From assembly GCA_029624675.1 (NCBI GenBank), contig JARSSP010000041.1, forward strand, positions 186,001-250,000: a DNA stretch of 64,000 nt. The letters are read 5' to 3'. Of this stretch, positions 5,240 through 42,042 are shown one piece after another. Under the pieces are notes generated by a model. The model ran no database searches. It was not told where the DNA came from and saw nothing but the letters and a program-made list of their open reading frames with translations. Both the position numbers and the translations under genes were made by a program. Source of the DNA: Candidatus Contendibacter sp. (GTDB taxonomy: Bacteria > Pseudomonadota > Gammaproteobacteria > Competibacterales > Competibacteraceae). Position 1 is the first letter of the stretch, and every line of letters starts with the position of its first letter.

Positions 5240-8200
5240 TCACGCTCCCACAGCAAGGCCGGTCTTTTCGGTGCCGCGCCGGGCGTCGGCGCGGGCCTTG
5301 GCCTGCAGATCCTGCAAGGCTCGCCGGTAATCCAGCGGCATGATCTTGACGAATCTCGGCAACATTTCGCGCCATTGCTCCAGCACTCGGCGGGCCGGTT
5401 CGCTGCCGGTATGGCGATGGTGGCGGGCGACCAGGATTCGCAGGCGCTGGGCGTCGTGGCGCAGCGGGTCGTCCGGCAATTCGGACTGGGCCAGATCGCT
5501 CCAGTCGTCGCCCAAAACCCGGACGTTGAGGGTTTCCTCGACATCGTTCAACGGTTCCAGCGCCACCATGGCTTTATTGGCGCGGCGGGCGAAGTCGCCG
5601 GTTTCGTCCAACACGTAGGCGATACCGCCACTCATGCCGGCGGCGAAGTTACGGCCAGTGGAACCCAGCACGACCACCACGCCACCGGTCATGTATTCGC
5701 AGCCGTGATCGCCGACGCCTTCGATCACCGCCAGCGCCCCGGAGTTGCGCACCGCGAAGCGTTCGCCAGCCACGCCGCGGGCGTAGCACTCACCGGCGAT
5801 GGCGCCGTAGAGCACGGTGTTACCGATGATGATGTTATCCTCAGCGCGCAGACGGCTGTTCTCAGAGGGGTAGATGACAAGCCGTCCGCCGGAAAGGCCC
5901 TTGCCAACGTAGTCGTTGGCTTCACCACGAAGTTCGAGCGTGATGCCGCGCGCCAGGAAGGCGCCGAAACTCTGGCCAGCAGTGCCGGTCAGGCGGACGT
6001 GGATGGTGTCGCTCGGCAAACCGGCGTGGCCATAGCGGCGGGCGACCTGGCCGGAGAGCATGGCGCCGACCGTGCGGTCGCTGTTGCGCACCGGAGTTTC
6101 AATCCACACCGACTGGCGCGCTTCCAGGGCGGGCCTGGCCTGGGCAATCAGCCGGTGATCCAGCGCGCCGCTCAGGCCATGGTCCTGTTCCTCGCAGTGG
6201 TAGGTGGCGACGCCGGGCGGGGCGAGCGGAACGGCCAGCAGCCGGGTAAAGTCCAGCCCGCGCGCCTTCCAGTGGTGGATGGCCCGGCGCATGTCGAGCC
6301 GGTCGGCCCGGCCGATCATCTGGTCGAAGGTGCGAAAGCCGAGCTGAGCCATCAATTCGCGCACTTCCTGCACCAGGAAGGTAAAGAAGTTGATGACGTG
6401 GGCCGGCTGGCCGGGAAAGCGCTTGCGCAGTTCCGGATCCTGGGTGGCGACCCCGACCGGGCAGGTGTTGAGGTGGCACTTGCGCATCATCAGGCAGCCG
6501 GCGGCGATCAGCGCGCCGGTGCCGAAGCCAAATTCGTCGGCGCCCAGCAGGGCACCGATCACGATGTCACGGCCGGTGCGCAGGCCGCCGTCGACTTGCA
6601 CGGCGATGCGGCCACGCAAATGGTTGCGCACCAGGGTTTGGTGGGTCTCGGCCAAGCCGATTTCCCAGGGCGAACCGGCATTTTGGATCGAGGTGATCGG
6701 GCTGGCACCGGTGCCGCCGTCCTCGCCGGAGATGGTGACGTGGTCGGCGTGGGCCTTGGCCACGCCGGCGGCGACGGTGCCGACCCCGATCTCGGACACC
6801 AGCTTGACGCTGATGGCGGCCTTGGGATTGACGTTCTTCAAGTCGAAGATTAGTTGCGCCAGGTCTTCGATAGAATAGATGTCGTGGTGTGGGGGCGGGG
6901 AGATCAGGCCGACGCCGGGGGTGGAATGACGCACCCGAGCGATCCAGTCGTTGACCTTGTGACCGGGCAGTTGGCCACCCTCGCCGGGTTTGGCGCCCTG
7001 GGCCATCTTGATTTGCAGGGCGTCGGCGTTGACCAGGTATTCGGCGGTGACGCCGAAGCGGCCGGAAGCGACCTGCTTGATGGCCGAGCGGATGGAGTCG
7101 CCGGTTTCCAGCGGGGTGTAGCGCACTGGATCCTCGCCCCCCTCGCCGGTATTGGACTTGGCGCCGAGACGATTCATGGCGATGGCCAGGGTGGTGTGGG
7201 CTTCCCAGGAAATCGAGCCGAACGACATCGCGCCGGTGGCGAGGCGCTTGACGATCTCGCTGGCCGGTTCCACTTCGTCCAGCGTCAGCGGCTGACTGGC
7301 GAAGCGGAACTCGAACAGGCCGCGCAGGTTGCGCAGATGATCGCGCTGGTCGTTCATCGCCCGGCTGTAGTGTCTGAACCGCTCGTAATCGCCGGAGCGG
7401 ACCGCATGTTGCAGCAGGGATACCGTTTCCGGGGTCCAGGCGTGACGCTCGCCACGGATGCGGAAGGCCAGTTCCCCGCCCACGTCCAAGGCGTCCCGGT
7501 AGAGGGGAGCATCGCCGAAGGCCTGTTGGTGGCGACTGACAGCCTCGCGGGCAATTTCGTCGAGACCGACGCCTTCGATCACACCCTGGGTGCCAGTGAA
7601 GTAGTGGTTCACGAATTCGCTGGCCAGGCCCACCGCCTCGAAAATCTGCGCGCCGCAGTAGGATTGATACGTGGAGATGCCCATCTTGGACATGACCTTG
7701 AGGATGCCCTTGGCGATAGCTTTGGTGTAGTGCTCGTGGGCCTCGGCCTCGGTCAGGGCCTGGGGCGCGTGGGACAGGTTAGCCGACAGGGTGTCGAAGG
7801 CCAGCCAGGGGTTGATGGCCTCGGCGCCATAGCCGGCCAGCAGGCAGAAGTCGTGCACCCGCTTGGCCTCGCCGGTTTCCACCACCAGACCCACCTCGGT
7901 GCGCAGCCCGGCGCGGATCAGGTGGTGATGGACGGCGGCGGTGGCGAGCAGGGCGGGAATGGCGATGTGATCGGCGTCCATCCCCCGGTCGGACAAGATC
8001 AGGATATTGCCGCCGCGCCGCACCACGTCGGCGGCCTCGCGGCAGAGATCCTCCAGCGCGCGGGCCATGCCGTCGGCGCCCCGGCCCACTGGGTAGCAAA
8101 TGCTCAACGTGCGAGTACGGAAGGCCCGGTCGACGTGGTACTCGATGCGGCGGATGCGTTCCAGATCGACATTGGCCAGGACCGGTCGCTTGACTTCCAG

Positions 8201-9895
8201 GCGCTTCTGGGTGCCGGCGCTGTGGGGATCGAGCAGGTTGGGGCGGGGACCGATGAAGGAGACCAGCGACATCACCAGTTCCTCGCGGATCGGATCGATC
8301 GGGGGGTTGGTGACCTGGGCGAATTTCTGCTTGAAGTAGTCGTAAAGCAGCTTGGGTCGATCGGACAGCACCGCCGGCGGAATGTCGCGGCCCATCGAAC
8401 TGATCGGGTCCTCGCCGGTCAGCGCCATCGGGTTGAGGAAGGCGCGAATATCCTCCTGGGTGTAGCCGAAGGCTTGCTGGCGATTCAGAAGGGTGCGCGG
8501 GTCGGGTGCCATCGGGCCGATTTCGGTCGGCAGGTCCTGCAAGCGGATCTGGGTGGCGTCCAGCCAGGCTTGATAGGGTTCGGCGGCGGCGAGTTGGGCC
8601 TTGATTTCGTCGTCGCCGACGATACGGCCCTGTTCCAGGTCGATGAGCAACATCTTGCCGGGTTGCAACCGCCATTTCTTGACGATCTTCTCTTCCGGGA
8701 TCGGCAATACGCCCATTTCCGAGGCCATGATCACTTGATCGTCGTCGGTGACCAGATAGCGGGCGGGGCGCAAGCCGTTGCGGTCCAGGGTGGCGCCGAT
8801 CTGGCGGCCGTCGGTGAAGGCGATGGCGGCGGGGCCATCCCAGGGTTCGATCAGGGCGGCGTGGTATTCGTAGAAGGCGCGGCGCTGGGGATCCATCAGC
8901 GGGTTGTCGGCCCAGGCTTCGGGCACCATCAGCATCATGGCGTGGGGCAGGGAATAGCCAGCGGCCAGCAGCAGTTCCAGGGCGTTGTCAAAGGTGGCGG
9001 AGTCGGACGCGCCGTCGCCGATCAGCGGCCACAGCTTGTCCAGGTCGGCGCCGAGCCGGTCGGAGCGCATGTTGTGGCGACGGGCCAGCATCCAGTTGAT
9101 GTTGCCGCGCAGGGTGTTGATTTCGCCGTTGTGGCACAGGTAGCGGAACGGGTGGGCCAGCGCCCAGGAGGGGAAAGTGTTGGTGGAGAAGCGCTGATGG
9201 ACCAGGGCAAGGGCCGATTCCAGCCGCTCGTCGCGCAGGTCGGGGTAGTACACGCCGATGTTGCGCGCCAGGATCATGCCCTTGTACACCAGGGTGCGCG
9301 ACGACAGCGAGGCGATGTAGAACTGCTGGCTGCCGAGCAGTTCAAGATCCCAGATGGCGTGATGGGTTTGCTTGCGGATCACGAACAGCTTGCGCTCGAA
9401 GGCATCGGTATCCGGGCAATTCGGGCCGCGTTGGACGAAGGCTTGGCGCACCACCGGCTCGGATGGGCGCACGCTGCGGCCCAGGCAGGAGTTGTCGGTC
9501 GGCACGTCGCGCCAGCCTAGGAAAATCTGGTCCTCGGCGACGACGGTGCGTTCCAGGGCGGCTTGGCTTTGAGCGCGAGTCTGAGCGTCGCGGGGGAGGA
9601 AGACCATGCCCACTGCGTAGTCGCCGGGCGCGGGCAGGTCGAAACCGAGATTGGCGGATTCAGCCCGCAGGAAGCCGTCGGGGATTTGCACCAGAATGCC
9701 GGCGCCATCGCCCGCCAGCGGATCGGCACCCACCGCGCCGCGATGGCTCAGGTTGGCCAGGATTTCCAGACCTTGGCGGACGGGCTGGTGGCTTTTACGG
9801 TTCTTGATGTCGACAACGAAACCGATGCCGCAGGCGTCATGTTCGTTGCGGGGATCGTAGAGTCCTTCGGAGGCGGGTGGGCGGGTCATGCTCAT
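5240..9895 (-). CDS. gltB: Glutamate synthase large (alpha) subunit
   Basis: Catalyses the amidotransferase and synthase halves of NADPH-GOGAT. The 1551-residue length is standard. The N-terminus shows a short propeptide followed by DACGIGFV, where the Cys (residue 22) should become the N-terminal nucleophile of the glutaminase domain after processing. The FMN-binding synthase domain contains the 3Fe-4S motif [17 protein letters not shown], and the C-terminal GXGXG beta-helix domain is seen in GGRLVIYP and [13 protein letters not shown]. The ATG at 9895 is preceded by GAGGAATGACCC. About 190 bases separate it from the end of the nine-gene cluster upstream; no convincing terminator or promoter was recognised there. 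With gdhA at 25 kb the window carries both routes of ammonia assimilation. Confidence 0.97.
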
Positions 9896-33377: not shown

Positions 33378-33707
33378 ATGAACGAACCATCCCCTCCCCG
33401 ACCCGGCGGTTTCGCCGTCGTCAGCCAGTTCATGGTGGCCAACGGCATGACCGAAGCCGTCAAAAGCGCCTTCCGTCAACGGCTGCGCCAGGTGGAGCAT
33501 GCGCCAGGCTTCGTGCGTCTGGACGTGCTCAGTCCGCTGGACTGCCCCGATGAAATTTGGCTGCTCACCTTCTGGCGCGACGAGGCCAGCTTCCGGTCCT
33601 GGTATCGCAGCCACGATTACCGCGAGGCCCACCAAGGGATTCCCAAGGGACTGAAACTGGTTCCCGGTCGGACCCTGATCCGCCATTTCGAACATGTCTG
33701 CTCCTGA
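33378..33707 (+). CDS. ABM-fold (antibiotic biosynthesis monooxygenase-like) protein
   Basis: Small dimeric alpha+beta-barrel protein of 109 residues. GGFAVVSQFMVANGMTEAVK, the spaced VRLDVLSP, and EIWLLTFWRDEASFRSWYRS are the strand-helix pattern of ABM/heme-degrading monooxygenases such as IsdG-like or YgiN-like proteins. The ATG at 33378 follows a GAGGAG ribosome site that overlaps the kfrA stop. The end overlaps the start of the cobalamin-binding gene by 14 bases. The substrate is unknown; heme or a quinone are possible, and its link to the tetrapyrrole-binding sensor next door is suggestive only. Confidence 0.75.
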   Translation: MNEPSPPRPGGFAVVSQFMVANGMTEAVKSAFRQRLRQVEHAPGFVRLDVLSPLDCPDEIWLLTFWRDEASFRSWYRSHDYREAHQGIPKGLKLVPGRTLIRHFEHVCS

Positions 33708-34779
33708 ACCGATGAACGCCCGAGAACTCAGCACCGCCATCGAAGCCCAGCGCCCGATGATCGCCGAGGCGGTCGCGACCCGCCAATACGCCGAACATCC
33801 GGAACTGCTCGAACGCCATGGCCCCATCGGCTGGCAACGCACCCTGGAAGACGCCAACTACAATCTCGCCTTCCTCGCCCAAGCCATCGCTCTGGAAAAT
33901 CCCGCGCTGTTCGTTGATTACCTGGGCTGGCTCAAGGTCGTCCTGTTGCGACGGCGGGTCCGGCTGCAGGATGTGCTCGATCATCTCGCGTATTTGCAAG
34001 AAGGTCTGCGCCAGAATCTGCCGGTCGAGGCGGCGGCGGTCGCATGCGCTTATGTGGCGGAAGGCGGTCGCCGGTTGCCGGACCTGCCTGACGACCTGCC
34101 CACGCTCATCGAGGGCAACGCGCCCATTTCCCTGCTCGCGCATCGATACCTCCAGGCTCTGATGCGCGGCGAACGCCATGTCGCCAGCCGGCTTGTCCAC
34201 GACGCCGTGACCCAGGGCACGCCGGTCAAGGACATTTACCTGGGCGTGTTCCAGCCCTGCCAGCGCGAGATCGGCCGGCTCTGGCAGACGAATCAAATCA
34301 GCGTCGCTCAGGAGCACTATTGCACCGCCGCGACGCAGTGGGTCATGTCGCAGCTCTATCCGTATATTTTTTCCGGCGAGAAGGGCGCCGGCCGGCTGGT
34401 GGCCACCTGCATCGCCGCCGAATTGCACGAGATCGGCGTGCGCATGGTGGCCGACTTCTTTGAGATGGAGGGTTGGGACACGTTTTACCTGGGTGCGAAC
34501 ACGCCCACCGACAGCGTCATCAGCGCGCTCGTCGAACGTCGGGCGGACGTGCTGGGCATCTCCGCCACCATCACTTACCATGTGAGCGAGGTGGAGCGGC
34601 TGATCCAGGCCGTGCGCGCGGCCCCCGCCTGTCGTGACGTGCTCGTCCTGGTGGGCGGGTATCCCTTCAATCTCGCGCCGGACCTGTGGCGGCGCATCGG
34701 CGCGGATGGCTGGGCGCCCGACGCCCAGACGGCCGTGGAGCGCGCGCGCGAACTCCTGGCCGCGCGGAGACCGGCATGA
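33694..34779 (+). CDS. Cobalamin-binding sensor with CarH-like W-x9-EH motif
   Basis: 361-residue protein. The C-terminal Rossmann domain holds ELHEIGVRMVADFF (Glu-x-His-x-x-Gly, the His that ligates cobalt, about residue 245), TFYLGANTPTDSVI and LVLVGGYPFN, typical of B12-binding domains. The preceding four-helix region contains WQTNQISVAQEHY, which is exactly Trp-x9-Glu-His (Trp197, Glu207, His208). That motif caps the adenosyl group in the light-sensing CarH/LitR proteins. Unlike CarH there is no N-terminal MerR DNA-binding domain; residues 1-130 are a different helical module. The stop overlaps the histidine kinase start (ATGA). I infer a cobalamin-dependent, possibly light-responsive, sensor acting through the downstream kinase. 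Start alternatives are ATG 33694 and ATG 33712. Confidence 0.85.
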   Translation: MSAPEPMNARELSTAIEAQRPMIAEAVATRQYAEHPELLERHGPIGWQRTLEDANYNLAFLAQAIALENPALFVDYLGWLKVVLLRRRVRLQDVLDHLAYLQEGLRQNLPVEAAAVACAYVAEGGRRLPDLPDDLPTLIEGNAPISLLAHRYLQALMRGERHVASRLVHDAVTQGTPVKDIYLGVFQPCQREIGRLWQTNQISVAQEHYCTAATQWVMSQLYPYIFSGEKGAGRLVATCIAAELHEIGVRMVADFFEMEGWDTFYLGANTPTDSVISALVERRADVLGISATITYHVSEVERLIQAVRAAPACRDVLVLVGGYPFNLAPDLWRRIGADGWAPDAQTAVERARELLAARRPA

Positions 34780-35993
34780 ACAGACTTCACGACCAGGGCA
34801 TCGCTCTGATCTGCGATCTCCAGGGGCGCGTGTGCGAAATCATTCGCGACAGTCTGGAGCTCGGCCCGCGCCTGCTCCCCGGCACGCCCATCGTCGAACT
34901 CGCGGACGCTGGCAACCAGGAGAAGGCCCGGCATTTTTTGGACGTCATCCACTCCACCGGCGCGGCGCTGGGATGGGAAATCAACGTGTTGCTGGAGGGC
35001 GGACTGGTCCCGCTGCACTGGGGCGGCGGAGTGAACGACGAGCGTCTGGTAGTGGTGATCGCCCGCACCCGCACCGCTCTGGCGGGACTGACGGAAGAAC
35101 TCATGCGGATCAACAACGAGCAGACCAACGCCTTCCGGTCGCTCGCCAAGGAGATCGCGCGACTCGTCCAGGCCCAGGGCGAACGGGACACGCGGTTGCT
35201 GGAAGAATTCACCGAGTTGAACAACGAATTGGCCGCGTTGCAGCGCGAAATGGCCAAGAAGAATGTCGAACTGGAACGGCTCAACCAACTGAAGAATCAG
35301 TTCCTTGGCATCGCCGCGCACGACCTGCGCAGTCCGCTGGGGGTGATTCAAATCTACAGCCAGTTTCTTGAAACCGAGCTGGGTCCCGCCGTCTCGGAAG
35401 AGCATTCCCAGTTCATCGTTACCATCCGCCAGACCAGCGAATCCCTGTTGCGGCTGGTGGATAATCTCCTCGACGTTTCGCAAATCGAAGCCGGCAAGCT
35501 GGAGCTGAACCGCCAACCGCTGGATTTGCGGGTTCTGGTCGAACAGAATCTCGCGTTCAATCGGGTGCTGGCCGCCAAGATGCAAAGACGGCTCGTGTTC
35601 GTCCCTCCCAAGTTCGCGTCCCTGATGTTGGAAGCCGACGGTCCGAAGCTCGAACAAGTGTTGAACAACCTCATCGGCAATGCCCTGAAGTTCTCCCCGG
35701 CGGGAACGCGAGTAGAGGTCAGCCTCGCTCGCGAAAGCGAGCGCGCGGTGGTATCGGTGCGCGACCAGGGACCAGGCATCCCGGCCGAGGAAGTGGGCAA
35801 GCTGTTCCGGTTTTTCCAGAAGACTAGCGTGCGCGGAGCCGGCGGCGAGCGCGGCAGCGGCCTGGGTTTGGCCATCGCCCGCAAGATCGTGGAGGGTCAC
35901 GGCGGGACGATCTGGGTCGAGACCGAACCCGGTTGTGGCTCCACCTTCTTGTTCTCGCTACCCCTGGCCTCCCCACAAGATTGCGACCCGTGA
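34776..35993 (+). CDS. Sensor histidine kinase coupled to the cobalamin sensor
   Basis: 405-residue cytoplasmic-looking kinase with no transmembrane segment. Residues 1-100 form a PAS-like input region, followed by a coiled coil (about 105-172). The dimerisation/phosphoacceptor box is FLGIAAHDLRSPLGV (His182). The ATPase domain has NNLIGNALKFS (N box), VRDQGPGIP (G1) and GSGLGLAIARKIVEGHGG (G2). The ATG at 34776 overlaps the B12-binding gene stop by 4 bases, and the response regulator start overlaps its own stop by 4 bases. The absence of a membrane sensor suggests that the signal comes from the neighbouring cobalamin protein. Confidence 0.92.
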   Translation: MNRLHDQGIALICDLQGRVCEIIRDSLELGPRLLPGTPIVELADAGNQEKARHFLDVIHSTGAALGWEINVLLEGGLVPLHWGGGVNDERLVVVIARTRTALAGLTEELMRINNEQTNAFRSLAKEIARLVQAQGERDTRLLEEFTELNNELAALQREMAKKNVELERLNQLKNQFLGIAAHDLRSPLGVIQIYSQFLETELGPAVSEEHSQFIVTIRQTSESLLRLVDNLLDVSQIEAGKLELNRQPLDLRVLVEQNLAFNRVLAAKMQRRLVFVPPKFASLMLEADGPKLEQVLNNLIGNALKFSPAGTRVEVSLARESERAVVSVRDQGPGIPAEEVGKLFRFFQKTSVRGAGGERGSGLGLAIARKIVEGHGGTIWVETEPGCGSTFLFSLPLASPQDCDP

Positions 35994-36982
35994 CGGCGCC
36001 CGTTCGCATTCTGGTGGCCGACGATGACGCCGCCAAGCGGCTGGCCATCACGCGCATCCTGCGCCAGGCTGATTATGAAGTGTTGCAAGTCGCGAGTGGC
36101 GTGGAGGCGCTCGATCTGGCCAAGGCCACTGCCCTCGATCTGGTGTTGCTGGACGTGGAAATGCCCGATCTCAGCGGCACCGAAGTCTGCCTCCGGCTCC
36201 GGGCGGAGCCCGCCACGAACGCCCTGCCGGTGCTCTATCTCTCGGCGCACCGCATCACCAGCCAGCATCGCGTCGAGGGACTGGATTCGGGCGCCGACGG
36301 TTATCTGGTCTGGCCGGTGGACCCGCGGGAGCTGTTGGCCTGGGTGCGAACCCTGCTGCGCGTCCGGCGCACCGAGCAAGCCTTGCGCACCGCCAACGCC
36401 GATTTGCACCAAACGCTGGAGAGCATCAGCGACGCCTTCTTCGCCCTGGACGATGCGTGGCGTGTAATCCACTTCAACGCCGCCGCCGAACGGGTAGCGG
36501 GGCGTGGTCGGGCGCAAGTTCTGGGCCGGCCCCTGCTGGATGGTTTCCCCGAATTGCGCGGCAGCGTGTTCGAAGCGAAATACGCCGAGGTCTTGCGTCA
36601 TCGACAACCGCTAGTCTTTGAAGCCCCCTTTGGTCAGCCGCCCCACACTCACTGGTACGAGGTGCGGATCTATCCGCGCGAGCCGGGTATCTCGGTCTAT
36701 TTCCAGGTCATCACTGCTCGCAAACAGGCCGAGACCGAGCGCGAGAATCTCATCCGCGACCTGCAATCCGCGCTGGCCAACGTCAAAACTCTCAGCAAAT
36801 TGCTGCCCATCTGCGCCGGCTGCAAAAAAATCCGCGACGACGCCGGCTATTGGCAGAGCGTCGAGAGCTATATGCTGCAACATGCCGACGTGCGTTTTAG
36901 CCACGGTCTTTGCCCGGACTGCTTGCGCGAATGCTATGCCGAACTGGATGATGACCTGGCGCCCCCCGGCGGTTCCCGATGA
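35990..36982 (+). CDS. Response regulator receiver-PAS protein
   Basis: 330-residue partner of the kinase, starting at GTG 35990 inside the kinase stop. The receiver domain has ILVADDDAAKRL and LVLLDVEMPDLSG (phosphoacceptor Asp55). Residues ~130-250 are a PAS domain (SISDAFFALDDAWRVIHFNA, then AAERVAGRGRAQVLG). The end carries a Cys-rich motif (LPICAGCKKIRDDAGYWQS, SHGLCPDCLRECY) often found at the C-terminus of PAS proteins; it may bind zinc. There is no DNA-binding or enzymatic output domain, so output is probably via protein contact or the Cys-rich tail. Confidence 0.88.
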   Translation: MTAPVRILVADDDAAKRLAITRILRQADYEVLQVASGVEALDLAKATALDLVLLDVEMPDLSGTEVCLRLRAEPATNALPVLYLSAHRITSQHRVEGLDSGADGYLVWPVDPRELLAWVRTLLRVRRTEQALRTANADLHQTLESISDAFFALDDAWRVIHFNAAAERVAGRGRAQVLGRPLLDGFPELRGSVFEAKYAEVLRHRQPLVFEAPFGQPPHTHWYEVRIYPREPGISVYFQVITARKQAETERENLIRDLQSALANVKTLSKLLPICAGCKKIRDDAGYWQSVESYMLQHADVRFSHGLCPDCLRECYAELDDDLAPPGGSR

Positions 36983-37090: not shown

Positions 37091-38227
37091 ATGAAGACCA
37101 TATGGAAAAATCTACTGACATTGCTGTTTCTGATGGGCGTTGGCATCGCTCAAGCCGCCGAACCCATCAAAATCGGCTCGTTCCTGACCGTGACCGGCCC
37201 CGCCTCGTTCCTGGGCGACCCCGAACTCAGGACGCTGCAGATGATGGTCGAGGACATCAACGCCAAGGGAGGTGTGAAGGGCCGAAAAATCGAGTTGATC
37301 CATTATGATACCGGGGGCAATGCCCGCGAGGCGGTCAATTTCGTCAAGCGTCTGATAAAAAACGACCACGTGGACTTGATCATCGGTGGCACCACTTCTG
37401 GCGACACCCTGGCGGTCATTCCGGACGTGGAAAAGGAAGGCATCCCCTTCATCTCGCTGGCCGCCGCCGTCGAAATCACCGAGCCGACCAAAAAATGGGT
37501 ATTCAAGGTCGCGCCCACCGACCGCATGGCGGTCATTCGCATTTTCGAGGACATGCGCCAGCGGGGTCTTGCCAAAATCGCTCTGATCACCGGCGATGGC
37601 GGGTTCGACAAGTCCGGCCGCGAGCAGATCCTCAAGCTGGCGCCCCAATACGGCATTACCCTGGTCGCCGACGAGTCCTACGGCAACAAGGACACCGACA
37701 TGACCGCCCAATTGACCAAGATTCGCGCCACTGACGCCCAGGCGATCCTCAACTTCGGCTTCGGCCAGGCGCCAGCCATCGTTACCAAGAACATCAAGCA
37801 ACTGGGCATCGCCCTGCCGTTGTACCACTCGCACGGCGTCGCCTCCAAGGCGTTCATCGATCTGGCGGGCGCGGCGGCGGAAGGCGCGCGTCTGCCAGCA
37901 GCGGCGCTGGTGGTCGCCGATCAGTTGCCGGACAACGATCCGCAAAAACCGGTGCTGCTAGCCTACAAGCGCCAATACGAAGCCAGGCACGGCCCGGTCT
38001 CCACCTTTGGCGGTCACGGCTACGACAGCCTGATGATCGCCAAGGCCGCGCTCGAACGGGTCGGCAACCCCGACAAAGCCAAGGTGCGCGACGAAATCGA
38101 GAAAACCCAGGGCTTCGTCGGCACCGCCGGCGTGTTCAACATGACCCCCGAAAACCACATGGGCCTGGGCCCGGACGCCTTCAAGCTGGTGGAAATCCGC
38201 AACGGCGCCTGGAAAATCATCAATTAG
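37091..38227 (+). CDS. livK: ABC-transporter substrate-binding protein, branched-chain/aromatic amino acid type (copy 1)
   Basis: Periplasmic binding protein of 378 residues. The signal peptide (LLTLLFLMGVGIAQAAEP) predicts cleavage after AQA. The mature part has IKIGSFLTVTGPASFLGDPE and GRKIELIHYDTGGNAREAVN, typical of type I periplasmic binding fold LivK/Leu-Ile-Val-binding proteins. It is closely similar to the copy at 40.9 kb, differing at scattered positions throughout. It precedes iorA by 102 bases. The ligand is likely a branched-chain or aromatic amino acid or arylacetate, judged from the iorAB/paaK context. Confidence 0.9.
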   Translation: MKTIWKNLLTLLFLMGVGIAQAAEPIKIGSFLTVTGPASFLGDPELRTLQMMVEDINAKGGVKGRKIELIHYDTGGNAREAVNFVKRLIKNDHVDLIIGGTTSGDTLAVIPDVEKEGIPFISLAAAVEITEPTKKWVFKVAPTDRMAVIRIFEDMRQRGLAKIALITGDGGFDKSGREQILKLAPQYGITLVADESYGNKDTDMTAQLTKIRATDAQAILNFGFGQAPAIVTKNIKQLGIALPLYHSHGVASKAFIDLAGAAAEGARLPAAALVVADQLPDNDPQKPVLLAYKRQYEARHGPVSTFGGHGYDSLMIAKAALERVGNPDKAKVRDEIEKTQGFVGTAGVFNMTPENHMGLGPDAFKLVEIRNGAWKIIN

Positions 38228-38329
38228 CCAAATCTCCACTACACTGTTCACGGCCAGTTCGACGGGCGGCGAATTTCTCTCCGATCATCCGCCAGTCACC
38301 GATCACAACCAACGAGGTCCACACCCTTC

Positions 38330-40198
38330 ATGAATGCCGTGGTTCAAGCCAAGGCCGAAAGCCGTCATCTCCTCTCCGGCAACGAAGCGGTCGCCCGCGC
38401 CGCCTGGGAAGCCGGCGTCCGGGTCGCCGCCGCCTACCCCGGCACCCCCGCGACGGAGATTCTGGAAAACATCGCCCTCTATCCCGATATCTACTCGGAA
38501 TGGTCGGTCAACGAAAAAGTCGCGGTGGAAGTCGCCATCGGCGCTTCGCTGGCGGGTTCGCGCGCCCTGGCGGCCATGAAGCACGTCGGCATGAACGTCG
38601 CTTCGGACGCCTTCATGACCCAGTCACTGGCCGGCGTGGTCGGCGGGCTGGTGATCGTGGTGGCCGACGACGTGGGCCTCTCTTCCTCGCAAAACGAGCA
38701 GGATTCCCGCTACTGGGGCCGCTTCGGCCACATGCCGATCCTGGAGCCGGCCGACTCCCAGGAAGCCTACGACATGGTCAAACGGGCCTTCGACCTTTCC
38801 GAGGAATACGAAGTCCCGGTCATCGTCCGCATGACCACTCGCGTCTGCCACGTCAAGGCCATGGTCGAGTTTGACGGCGAACGCGTGGAGCATCGGGCCG
38901 CCGGATTTCAGAAGAACCCCCAGCGCTGGGTAATGACCCCAGCCAACGCCAAGCCGCGCCTGCCGCTGATGCACGAGCGCGACCGAAAATTCCGCGAACT
39001 GAGCGAAACCATCGACCTCAACATCGTTTTCCCCGGCGGCGACCGCCGGATTGGCTTCGTCACCGCCGGACCGGCCTTCATGCACGTCCGCGAGACCTTC
39101 CCCAACGCTCCGGTGCTCAAGCTCGGCTTCAGTTGTCCGCCGCCGCTGGACAAGATTCGCGCCTTCGCCGGCCAGGTGGACACGCTGGTGGTGGTCGAGG
39201 AAACCGAGCTGTTGCTCGAAACCGAAATTCGCGCCGCCGGCATCGCCGTCCGGGGCAAGGATGTGCTGCCGCGCTTCGGCGAACTGGCTCCCAGCGTGCT
39301 GCGCCCGGCCATCAAGCCCCTGTTGGGCGAACCCTGGGAGGTTCCAAAACGCGCCCAGGCCAGCGTCTTCCCCCGCCCGCCGACCATGTGCGCCTCCTGC
39401 CCGCATCTCGGCCCCTACTTCGCCCTGTCCCACATCCGCAACCTCAATATCATCGGCGACATCGGCTGCTACACCCTGGGCGCCGGCCATCCCTGGAACG
39501 CGCTCGACACCTGTACCTGCATGGGGGCCTCGCTCAGCATGGCCCACGGCATGGACAAGGGCCGCGGCGAGTCGGACGAGAAGAAGCACATCGTCGCGGT
39601 GATCGGCGATTCCACCTTCCTGCACATGGGGATGCAAGGCCTGCTGAACATGATCTACAACCGGGGCAACGTTACCGTGCTGCTGCTGGACAACCGTTCG
39701 GTCGGCATGACCGGCGGCCAGGAGAATCCTGGCACGGGTGAAGACTTGCACGGCTTGCCCGCCCCTCGGGTGGATTTCGCCAAACTGGTCGAAGGGCTGG
39801 GCGTCCGTCCCGAACGCATCCGTATGGTCGATCCCTATGAGCTGCCCACCATCGTCAAGCTGGTGCGCGAAGAGACCAAGATGGAGGAACCGTCGGTCAT
39901 CATCACCAACCGACCCTGTTCCCTCACCGACCGCTTCGAGCGTCTCCAGCCCTACGTGGTCATCGACGACCAATGCACCGGTTGCGGCAACTGCATCGAC
40001 CTCGGGTGTCCGGCCATCTTCGTCGCCCGCCGCGAGACCGTGACCGCCAAGAGCGGCAAGAGCAAGGAACTGGTGTTCGCCCGCATCGACGCCAATACCT
40101 GCACCGGTTGTCATATGTGCGTCGAAACCTGCGCGCCCGAGGCCATTGTCCAGCCACAGCCACAGAACCGCGTCATTCGGATTCAGCCCCATGCGTGA
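38330..40198 (+). CDS. iorA: Indolepyruvate ferredoxin oxidoreductase, alpha subunit
   Basis: Oxidatively decarboxylates aryl pyruvates (indolepyruvate, phenylpyruvate) to aryl-acetyl-CoA with reduction of ferredoxin. The 622-residue protein has the N-terminal pyrimidine domain (LSGNEAVARAAWEAGVRVAA, AYPGTPATEI), the thiamine-diphosphate region (GDIGCYTLGAGHPWNALDT, GDSTFLHMGMQGLLN) and a C-terminal pair of ferredoxin motifs (CTGCGNCIDLGCPAIF and CTGCHMCVETCAPEAI). The first motif has the spacing change typical of IorA. Its stop overlaps iorB by 8 bases. Confidence 0.95.
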   Translation: MNAVVQAKAESRHLLSGNEAVARAAWEAGVRVAAAYPGTPATEILENIALYPDIYSEWSVNEKVAVEVAIGASLAGSRALAAMKHVGMNVASDAFMTQSLAGVVGGLVIVVADDVGLSSSQNEQDSRYWGRFGHMPILEPADSQEAYDMVKRAFDLSEEYEVPVIVRMTTRVCHVKAMVEFDGERVEHRAAGFQKNPQRWVMTPANAKPRLPLMHERDRKFRELSETIDLNIVFPGGDRRIGFVTAGPAFMHVRETFPNAPVLKLGFSCPPPLDKIRAFAGQVDTLVVVEETELLLETEIRAAGIAVRGKDVLPRFGELAPSVLRPAIKPLLGEPWEVPKRAQASVFPRPPTMCASCPHLGPYFALSHIRNLNIIGDIGCYTLGAGHPWNALDTCTCMGASLSMAHGMDKGRGESDEKKHIVAVIGDSTFLHMGMQGLLNMIYNRGNVTVLLLDNRSVGMTGGQENPGTGEDLHGLPAPRVDFAKLVEGLGVRPERIRMVDPYELPTIVKLVREETKMEEPSVIITNRPCSLTDRFERLQPYVVIDDQCTGCGNCIDLGCPAIFVARRETVTAKSGKSKELVFARIDANTCTGCHMCVETCAPEAIVQPQPQNRVIRIQPHA

Positions 40199-40814
40199 CG
40201 GCATCACCAACATTCTCGTGGTCGGCATCGGCGGTCAGGGCGTGATGACCGCCGCCGAAATGCTGGCCCGCACCGCCCTGAGCCAGGGCTACGATGTCAA
40301 GAAGACCGAGGTTGCCGGCATGGCCCAGCGCGGCGGCGTGGTCTCCTCGCATGTGCGCTTTGGCCCCAAGGTCTACTCCCCGCAGATCGACGCTGGCGAA
40401 GCCGATTTGCTGATCGGCTTCGAAGCCGCCGAGGCCCTGCGCTGGCTGCCGCACTTACGACCGACTGGCGTGGCCATGGTCAACACCCTGCGTCTTCCTC
40501 CCCCGGTTGTGTCCGCCGGCCTGTACGACTACCCCGCCGATCCCATCGCCGATCTAGCGGCGTCGGGCATCGAAGTCCACGCCTTCGACGCGGGCGCCAT
40601 CGCCGAGGAATTGGGTAACTCCAAGCTGGTGAACACCATCATGCTAGGGGCGATTAGCGACCACCTGCCCTTCCCCGCCGAGGTGCTCAAGGCGTCCATC
40701 GTGGAGGGCTTTCGCGCCTACAAGCCCAGGCTGGCGGACATCAACGCCCAGGCTTTCGACGCGGGCAGGGAAGCGGGTCACGCCAAGACGACCACGCATC
40801 GTTCGGCGACCTGA
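40191..40814 (+). CDS. iorB: Indolepyruvate ferredoxin oxidoreductase, beta subunit
   Basis: Gamma-type subunit completing the IorAB complex, 207 residues from ATG 40191. INILVVGIGGQGVMTAAEML and VAGMAQRGGVVSSHVRFG are the hallmark sequences of the family. The start lies inside the end of iorA, so synthesis is coupled. The open frame extends 15 codons upstream but those overlap iorA and lack a ribosome site. The complex would supply phenylacetyl-CoA or indoleacetyl-CoA from transaminated aromatic amino acids. Confidence 0.93.
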   Translation: MRDGITNILVVGIGGQGVMTAAEMLARTALSQGYDVKKTEVAGMAQRGGVVSSHVRFGPKVYSPQIDAGEADLLIGFEAAEALRWLPHLRPTGVAMVNTLRLPPPVVSAGLYDYPADPIADLAASGIEVHAFDAGAIAEELGNSKLVNTIMLGAISDHLPFPAEVLKASIVEGFRAYKPRLADINAQAFDAGREAGHAKTTTHRSAT

Positions 40815-40902
40815 CGTCCATAATCCATAATGAACCCGTGGGGACAAGCCTCGCGCCTGCCCCTGCTCAACATAAAACATCACCCCAAGGGAGAAGATCG
40901 CT

Positions 40903-42042
40903 ATGAAAAACTTGTGGCAAACCACCCTGGCGGCGGTGTTGCTGTGCGCCAGCGTTAGCTGGGCCAGCGCCGCCGAGCCCATCAAGATCGGTTCCGTTCT
41001 GACCGTGACCGGCCCAGCTTCGTTTCTGGGCGACCCAGAACTGAAAACGCTGCAAATGTATGTCGAGGACCTCAACGCCAAGGGCGGCGTGAAGGGCCGC
41101 AAGCTCGAACTGATCCACTACGACACCGGCGGCAACGCCAAGGACGCGGTCAACTTTGTCAAGCGATTGATTAAGAACGACAACGTCGATCTCATCGTCG
41201 GCGGCACCACCACCGGCGACACCCTGGCGGTCATCCCCGACGTGGAAAAGGAAGGCATTCCGTTCATCTCGCTGGCGGGCGCGGTGGAAATCATCGAACC
41301 GGTCAAGAAATGGGTGTTCAAGACTCCCCACACCGACCGGATGGCTGTCGCGAAAATCTACGAGGATCTGCGCAAGCGTGGCCTGACCAAGGTGGCGATC
41401 ATCACCGGTGATGGTGGCTTCGACAAATCCGGTCGCGAGCAATTGCTCAAGCTGGCGCCCCAATATGGCGTCACCCTCGTCGCCGACGAGTCCTACGGCA
41501 ACAAGGACACCGACATGACCGCCCAATTGACCAAGATCCGGTCTTCGGACGCCCAGGCGATCATCAACTTCGGCCTGGGTCAGGCGCCGGCCATCGTCAC
41601 CAAGAACATCAAGCAACTGGGCATCACCCTGCCGCTCTATCAGTCCCACGGCGTGGCTTCCAAGACCTTCATCGATCTGGCCGGCGACGCGGCGGAAGGC
41701 GTGCGTCTGCCGGCGGCGGCCCTGGTGGTCGCCGAGCAACTGCCCGACGCCGATCCTCAAAAACCGGTGCTGCTGGCCTACAAGAACAAATACGAAGCCA
41801 AGCACGGCCCGGTGTCCACCTTTGGCGGTCACGCCTACGACGGCCTGATGATCGCCGTGGCCGCCATCCAGCGGGCCGGTGGAACCGACAAGGCCAAGGT
41901 GCGCGACGAGATCGAGAAAACCCAGGGCTTCATCGGCACCGGCGGCGTGTTCAACATGACCCCTCAAGATCACATGGGTCTGACCGTGGACGCCTTCAAG
42001 TTGGTGGAAATCCGTAACGGTTCCTGGAAAATCGTTCAATAG
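40903..42042 (+). CDS. livK: ABC-transporter substrate-binding protein, branched-chain/aromatic amino acid type (copy 2)
   Basis: Second LivK-like periplasmic binding protein (379 residues), with signal peptide LAAVLLCASVSWASAAEP and mature start IKIGSVLTVTGPASFLGDPE. It aligns without large gaps to copy 1 at 37.1 kb. A good GGGAGA ribosome site precedes the ATG. Located immediately before livH, this copy is the canonical partner of the permeases; copy 1 may have a different ligand or expression. Confidence 0.92.
   Translation: MKNLWQTTLAAVLLCASVSWASAAEPIKIGSVLTVTGPASFLGDPELKTLQMYVEDLNAKGGVKGRKLELIHYDTGGNAKDAVNFVKRLIKNDNVDLIVGGTTTGDTLAVIPDVEKEGIPFISLAGAVEIIEPVKKWVFKTPHTDRMAVAKIYEDLRKRGLTKVAIITGDGGFDKSGREQLLKLAPQYGVTLVADESYGNKDTDMTAQLTKIRSSDAQAIINFGLGQAPAIVTKNIKQLGITLPLYQSHGVASKTFIDLAGDAAEGVRLPAAALVVAEQLPDADPQKPVLLAYKNKYEAKHGPVSTFGGHAYDGLMIAVAAIQRAGGTDKAKVRDEIEKTQGFIGTGGVFNMTPQDHMGLTVDAFKLVEIRNGSWKIVQ

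Follow-up and report, generated by a model that had tools for sequence, protein, structure and literature searches.

Organization of the locus

The 64,000-nucleotide stretch analysed here, called the window, comes from the 4.7 Mb genome of Candidatus Contendibacter sp. (assembly GCA_029624675.1, contig JARSSP010000041.1, positions 186,001 to 250,000). It contains a head-to-tail array of four + strand genes, with overlaps of 14, 4, and 4 bases. They encode an ABM-family protein (33378..33707; PF03992, Pfam E 2.1e-15, IsdG/HmoB-like fold), a 361-residue photocobilin-type cobalamin (B12) protein with the domain order globin-B12 (33694..34779), a soluble histidine kinase of 405 residues (34776..35993), and a response regulator (35990..36982). 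An earlier reading made from the letters alone (the sequence-only reading) had described the last three genes as an operon at 33694-36982, in which a CarH-like cobalamin sensor was coupled to a two-component system by successive 4-base overlaps. These overlaps were exact, with ATGA between the B12 and kinase genes and GTGA between the kinase and response regulator genes. The three genes stood, but the start did not: the operon begins one gene upstream of the B12 gene, with the ABM/IsdG-like gene, which had been missed and runs 14 bases into the B12 gene, as a member. In the related locus L001, DNA similarity (17 kb compared) was limited to 33391-36954 of the window, and the four genes were therefore regarded as a single unit. 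The similarity in L002 extended into the flanks. The nearest named relatives were Candidatus Competibacteraceae and Candidatus Contendobacter, with 88% protein identity. Promoter and terminator scans gave no result above chance.

The comparison set of relatives comprised 80 loci, all of them in named genomes, which span 16 named phylum-level groups, including Promethearchaeota, Methanobacteriota, and Bathyarchaeota. The gene set recurred across very different bacteria, with a simpler version in archaea. L045 and seven short or split rows were left out of some alignments. Whole-genome searches covered 51 genomes, with L015 and L048 left out. A separate, Bacteroidota-centred sample of 395 genomes, built around a Rufibacter, contained a homologue of the B12 protein (the receptor) in 19 genomes, four of which repeated earlier ones.

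Cobalamin domains of the receptor

Pfam analysis of the B12 protein revealed a four-helix domain (PF02607, residues 149-221, E 2.8e-17) and a Rossmann domain (PF02310, residues 234-348, E 4.2e-25), which together occupy 34138..34737. No helix-turn-helix or MerR family of Pfam matched the protein, in agreement with the sequence-only reading, which had proposed a protein with the motif of adenosylcobalamin (AdoCbl) photoreceptors and no DNA-binding domain. The W-x9-EH motif and the cobalt-ligating His were located at W197 (34282-34284), E207-H208 (34312-34317), and H245 (34426-34428). That reading had also staked its claim on conservation of the motif in orthologues of the operon, and W, E, H, and H were found in 73/73 full-length loci. 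The four residues were thus invariant in 74 aligned full-length sequences (the window and 73 loci), and the seven short or split rows carried them as well. The acidic residue of the E/DxH signature ahead of H245 was kept in 72 of the 73 full-length loci. The place of CarH His132 was taken by Q198 in the window and by His in 7/73 orthologues.

The AlphaFold (AF2) model of the 361-residue protein had a predicted local distance difference test score (pLDDT) of 95. In the structure comparison of residues 143-357, the best match was the photocobilin 8j2w (Z 26.8, root-mean-square deviation 1.6, 206 residues), and the cobalamin domain of CarH scored lower than the photocobilins (Z about 19-20). Enzymes that make AdoCbl were present in the window's genome (PF01923 twice, PF02572 once).

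A bilin-type globin at the N-terminus

Residues 1-145 of the B12 protein (33694..34128) were matched by no Pfam model. A profile built from 38 orthologous N-termini and searched against the PDB retrieved the globin of SasPcob (8j2x, E 5.5e-8) and that of AbPcob (8j2y, 3.3e-6), followed by allophycocyanin (2.6e-5) and other phycobiliproteins. In the alignment, D53 (33850-33852) and W79 (33928-33930) corresponded to Asp270 and Trp296 of SasPcob, while W197, E207, H208, and H245 corresponded to its Trp61, Glu71, His72, and His108; all six equivalences shared one numbering offset of 5. W79 was present in 73/73 and D53 in 71/73 full-length orthologues, and no Cys was found at the phycobiliprotein attachment place.

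On this sequence evidence, the B12 protein is a photocobilin with reversed domain order (globin-B12), and because of this type, bilin and red as well as green light are likely inputs. The CarH-like sensor of the sequence-only reading holds for the B12 domain, which is of the AdoCbl-photoreceptor type; the identification as a CarH that lost its DNA-binding domain was rejected, since the N-terminus is a bilin-type globin. In several relatives (L068, L077, L151/L156, and L178), the globin and B12 parts of the photocobilin were encoded by separate genes, both still within the unit. Five other relatives (L067, L072, L076, L078, and L175) had no globin and were still paired with the kinase.

The PAS-coiled-coil kinase partner

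The kinase contained a HisKA domain (residues 173-240), with the phosphoacceptor-type H182 (35319-35321) in the sequence HDLRSPL, and a HATPase_c domain (residues 288-398), both recognised by Pfam. No 19-residue window had transmembrane-like hydropathy (maximum 1.1), so the membrane-free kinase described before was borne out. A match to this kinase lay directly downstream of the receptor gene in 76/80 loci, with a 4-base overlap in 31 by the start choice made. Among the four loci without an adjacent kinase, the sequence of L045 stops within the receptor gene and that of L075 shortly beyond it. In the Rufibacter-centred sample, the kinase or its N-terminal module adjoined the receptor in 17/19 genomes; the other two receptors, L176 and L177, also had no D53, similar to L155 of Pseudomonadota. 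Because the kinase was directly downstream in 76 of the 80 relatives, the pairing goes beyond chance.

The N-terminus of the kinase (34776..35288) had no match among the Pfam PAS families listed when 42 members were scanned. The AlphaFold model of this part was a PAS fold, with residues 11-100 at 85-93 pLDDT, and PAS structures of the PDB were matched from E 1.0e-5. In the coiled coil that follows the PAS fold, N149-N150 and R157 were invariant. The downstream gene consisted of the PAS-coil module alone, with no kinase found, in four Adhaeribacter and Rufibacter loci (L014, 7017-7508; L019, 7025-7543; L027, 7061-7549; L036, 7020-7517), and the two of these four genes that were scanned had no Pfam match. 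Elsewhere, the PAS-coil preceded either PAS domains or a hybrid kinase that carried receiver and Hpt domains. These kinase-less and variable-output forms indicate that the PAS-coil is the constant part of the partner, and it is therefore proposed as the site on which the receptor docks. The photocobilin and the PAS-coiled-coil kinase are an old pair, conserved across phyla, archaea included.

The response regulator

The response regulator consisted of a receiver domain (residues 7-119), a PAS domain (143-246), and a tail with the pattern CxxC...CxxC from C275 (36812), the domain content that had been read from the sequence before. The phospho-Asp of the receiver was kept within DLVLLDVEMPD. 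A conserved Lys is the usual residue of receivers; as read by eye, it was replaced by Trp in the window, L001, and L002 and was present in L022, L026, and L031. Two-component signalling by phosphotransfer, as proposed earlier, is consistent with the HisKA and HATPase_c domains and H182 of the kinase, but the replacement of Lys by Trp makes transfer to this response regulator less certain.

The Cys-rich tail (C..CK.IR....YW ... C..C; window 36812-36982) had no Pfam match and is a probable metal site. It recurred downstream of the receptor-kinase pair in L022, L026, and L031 (about 8383-9379), which are Deltaproteobacteria-type loci with a more divergent form of the gene, the middle parts being otherwise divergent. 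When all open reading frames of at least 60 residues in the 80 loci were searched, the pattern was found only in L001, L002, L022, L026, and L031. Of the two partners named in the sequence-only reading, it is the kinase, by way of its PAS-coil N-terminus, that is conserved among phyla; within this set of loci, the response regulator gene was seen in the nearest relatives and three divergent loci.

A Ser-Trp-His subfamily of ABM proteins

A profile of the ABM proteins matched TT1380 (7.4e-18) and HmoB (2.5e-14), then MhuD, IsdI, and IsdG. The catalytic triad of IsdG is Asn7-Trp67-His77, and its Asn is described as critical for activity (PMC6018153). In the linked ABM proteins, the ABM fold with the places of Trp67 and the axial His77 was present, and the place of the catalytic Asn7 was occupied by Ser: S16, W75, and H85 were invariant in 28/28 sequences. 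Ser was found in all 31 photocobilin-linked members (the 28 and 3 new ones), against Asn in 9/9 unlinked canonical relatives with Trp and His; L148 (21.9 bits, no motif Trp) was left out of this comparison. Judged by sequence, the photocobilin-linked ABM is a subfamily of its own, with Ser-Trp-His for the canonical Asn-Trp-His. It probably handles heme or bilin, and with Ser for Asn, heme may be bound and not degraded.

The ABM gene adjoined the receptor gene in 27/80 loci, upstream on the same strand in 26 and divergently in one. The 51 whole genomes contained 26 strong ABM matches, one in each of the 26 ABM-positive genomes and none in the 25 ABM-negative genomes (best 51.7 bits). Among 398 Pseudomonadota genomes, ABM was found in four, all of them among the five with a receptor, and the 395-genome sample gave strong matches in five, all among its 19 receptor genomes. 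Six of these nine ABM genomes were already in the query alignment (3/4, including the window, and 3/5); the three independent new cases (G375, G654, and G744) all adjoined a photocobilin. The L084 sequence is a repeat of L008. No ABM of the linked type was found away from a receptor in the two phylum samples (793 genomes), and seven further matches (56-63 bits) in genomes without a receptor were of the canonical Asn type. ABM and receptor distances were correlated (Spearman 0.75 over 24 loci, with L001, L002, L055, and L077 left out), and none of 2000 permutations was as high. The receptor tree required 15 or more changes of ABM state. An ABM gene accompanied the receptor in 0/6 loci in which no globin gene was found (L067, L069, L072, L076, L078, and L175), too small a number to draw a conclusion from. 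In L011 (Desulfoferrobacter suflitae), a decayed ABM C-terminus lay at about 5550-5980, upstream of an intact receptor-kinase pair.

Oxygen and the source of the chromophore

COX1 was found in 26/26 ABM-positive and 17/25 ABM-negative genomes (Fisher p 0.0017, uncorrected for ancestry). The independent-pairs test of ABM against oxygen, meant to remove the effect of relatedness, had 3 pairs on starred branches and no power (p 1). The classical heme oxygenase PF01126 was found in one of the 26 ABM-positive and five of the 25 ABM-negative genomes, a difference that was not significant (Fisher p 0.10), and was not found in 45/51 genomes. Twenty of the 25 ABM-negative genomes had neither a linked ABM nor PF01126, and nearly all of these keep D53 (not L079 and L080). 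A phytochrome was sought in the window's genome as a second user of bilin, and none was found.

The association with COX1, the PF01126 counts, and the L011 remnant fit an ABM that is an oxygen-using tetrapyrrole enzyme or carrier serving the receptor. A stronger form of this idea, in which the Ser-Trp-His ABM is a dedicated maker or loader of bilin that replaces heme oxygenase in oxygen-respiring lineages and is lost without oxygen, is put forward tentatively and is rather doubtful, because Ser replaces the catalytic Asn and 20 of the 25 ABM-negative genomes have neither enzyme.

Neighboring genes

A KfrA_N gene (PF11740; 32329-33357) ended 20 bases 5' of the ABM gene. It was also found upstream in L002 and L083, and L001 had no DNA match there. 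Right after the operon (37091-42042), two open reading frames resembling periplasmic amino-acid-binding proteins (37091-38227, Peripla_BP_6; 40903-42042), judged by eye to be alike, flanked a gene similar to thiamine pyrophosphate/ferredoxin oxidoreductases (38330-40198).

Proposed mechanism and alternatives

The residues, the models, and the analogy with known photocobilins suggest, with a probability of about 0.62, that the B12 protein is a photocobilin-type light receptor that acts in trans on its dedicated histidine kinase. As the invariant residues and the 8J2W-like model suggest, H245 would ligate AdoCbl held base-off/His-on in the cobalamin domains, and the adenosyl group would be surrounded by W197 and E207-H208. 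By comparison with SasPcob, the N-terminal globin would bind a bilin non-covalently through D53, which would extend excitation to red light. Light would break the Co-C bond, and an aquo product as in SasPcob appears likelier than the bis-His product of CarH because Gln is at the place of His132. A change at the four-helix or dimer interface may then alter the contact with the PAS-coil of the kinase, and hence kinase activity. Control through the PAS-coil is suggested by the conserved gene pair, by its kinase-less versions, and by the known action of photocobilins in trans. The kinase might signal to the RR-PAS-Cys protein (the response regulator above), to an unlinked regulator, or to both, and the linked ABM could supply or handle the tetrapyrrole.

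Several observations weigh against this light-receptor reading. PF01126 and phytochrome were both not found in the window's genome, and D53 and W79 are retained by anaerobes and archaea that have neither ABM nor PF01126; a heme-derived bilin is therefore not a safe assumption for every member. The window differs from most orthologues at A242, which is Gly in 53/73 (the GxxH signature), and at N57, which is His in 63/73, and its receiver carries Trp at the Lys place. Support for the globin fold comes from conserved residues, the profile match, and a helical model, and its limit counts on the same side: the structure search covered residues 142-359 only and matched the B12 part, and no globin was among the 50 structure matches listed for the whole model.

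The scarcity of PF01126 among the 51 genomes, together with the globin-less relatives that keep their pairing with the kinase, would also be expected if the bilin site were unused as in AbDPcob, the globin were structural only, and the receptor were a green-light AdoCbl sensor. This is unlikely, as PMC10979010 attributes the weak binding of AbPcob to its missing Asp, which is kept here in 71/73. Slightly less likely still is a sensor of cobalamin form, heme, or redox status to which light is incidental. Judged by title, many holders are anaerobes or metagenome-assembled genomes from sediment or sludge; in addition, the receptor has a linked partner that resembles a heme enzyme, and the window's genome has no phytochrome, all of which would suit such a sensor. 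A mere cobalamin sensor would need neither the adenosyl-pocket W and EH, which mark light-responsive domains (PMC11796333) and are invariant here, nor the bilin residue pair, which is kept. The corrinoid methyl-transfer proteins MtgC and MtbC of one-carbon metabolism gave sub-threshold NCBIfam matches, and the kinase could then be nearby by chance. This explanation was rejected as highly improbable, since all these matches were far below the model cut-offs, the photoreceptor motifs are present with the kinase adjacent in 76/80 loci, and no methyltransferase was recognised among the annotated neighbour genes.

Relation to known systems

The 2024 paper that described photocobilins (PMC10979010) did not settle what the standalone ones do. 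According to it, standalone photocobilins change a separate diguanylate cyclase domain in trans in vitro, AbDPcob binds biliverdin weakly owing to loss of the Asp, and a group with a C-terminal B12 domain was already recognised by the authors. The window protein shares the two domains and the AdoCbl motifs with SasPcob (8J2W/8J2X) and AbDPcob (8J2Y), and with SasPcob also the Asp and Trp of biliverdin binding. It differs in its globin-B12 order, theirs being B12-globin, and in its surroundings: an operon histidine kinase and a linked ABM gene, whereas the tested output of photocobilins is a diguanylate cyclase. Photoglobins and BBAG-2 globins are likewise bilin-type globins tied to B12-binding proteins, with a proposed association with signalling; for the latter, an association with classical heme oxygenase is reported (PMC10151467), whereas the window's genome has an IsdG-like gene linked to the receptor and no PF01126.

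CarH/LitR have the W-x9-EH motif and the cobalt-ligating His in common with the window protein, but they carry a MerR domain and His132, while the window protein has no MerR domain, Gln at that place, and an extra globin. The linked ABM resembles IsdG, HmoB, and MhuD in fold and in the places of the catalytic Trp and axial His, and differs in the Ser that replaces their Asn in every linked member. Structures of AppA, AerR, and PpsR were among the matches to the B12 part of the photocobilin and to the kinase N-terminus. In AerR-CrtJ and AppA-PpsR, a protein with a B12-type or SCHIC domain acts on a PAS-domain partner; that partner is a transcription repressor, whereas here it is a kinase. Photoglobin gene neighbourhoods have reportedly been treated by Schneider et al. 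in 2022 (CSBJ). That work lay outside the scope of the text search, in which the term "histidine kinase" was absent from the main text of PMC10979010, PMC11796333, and PMC10151467. Within the literature that the search covered, no paper was found on a link of the receptor to the kinase or the ABM gene, on a Ser-Trp-His ABM tied to the receptor, or on a kinase-less PAS-coil.

If the chromophore-maker idea for the ABM is true, the operon would be a self-contained B12/bilin photoreceptor-kinase unit with its own tetrapyrrole enzyme. The operon also provides a candidate natural green/red light kinase for optogenetics. The linked ABM may answer the question of where bilin originates in genomes without classical heme oxygenase. 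From Gammaproteobacteria to Promethearchaeota, a conserved histidine kinase with a PAS-coiled-coil N-terminus would be the evident output of standalone photocobilins.

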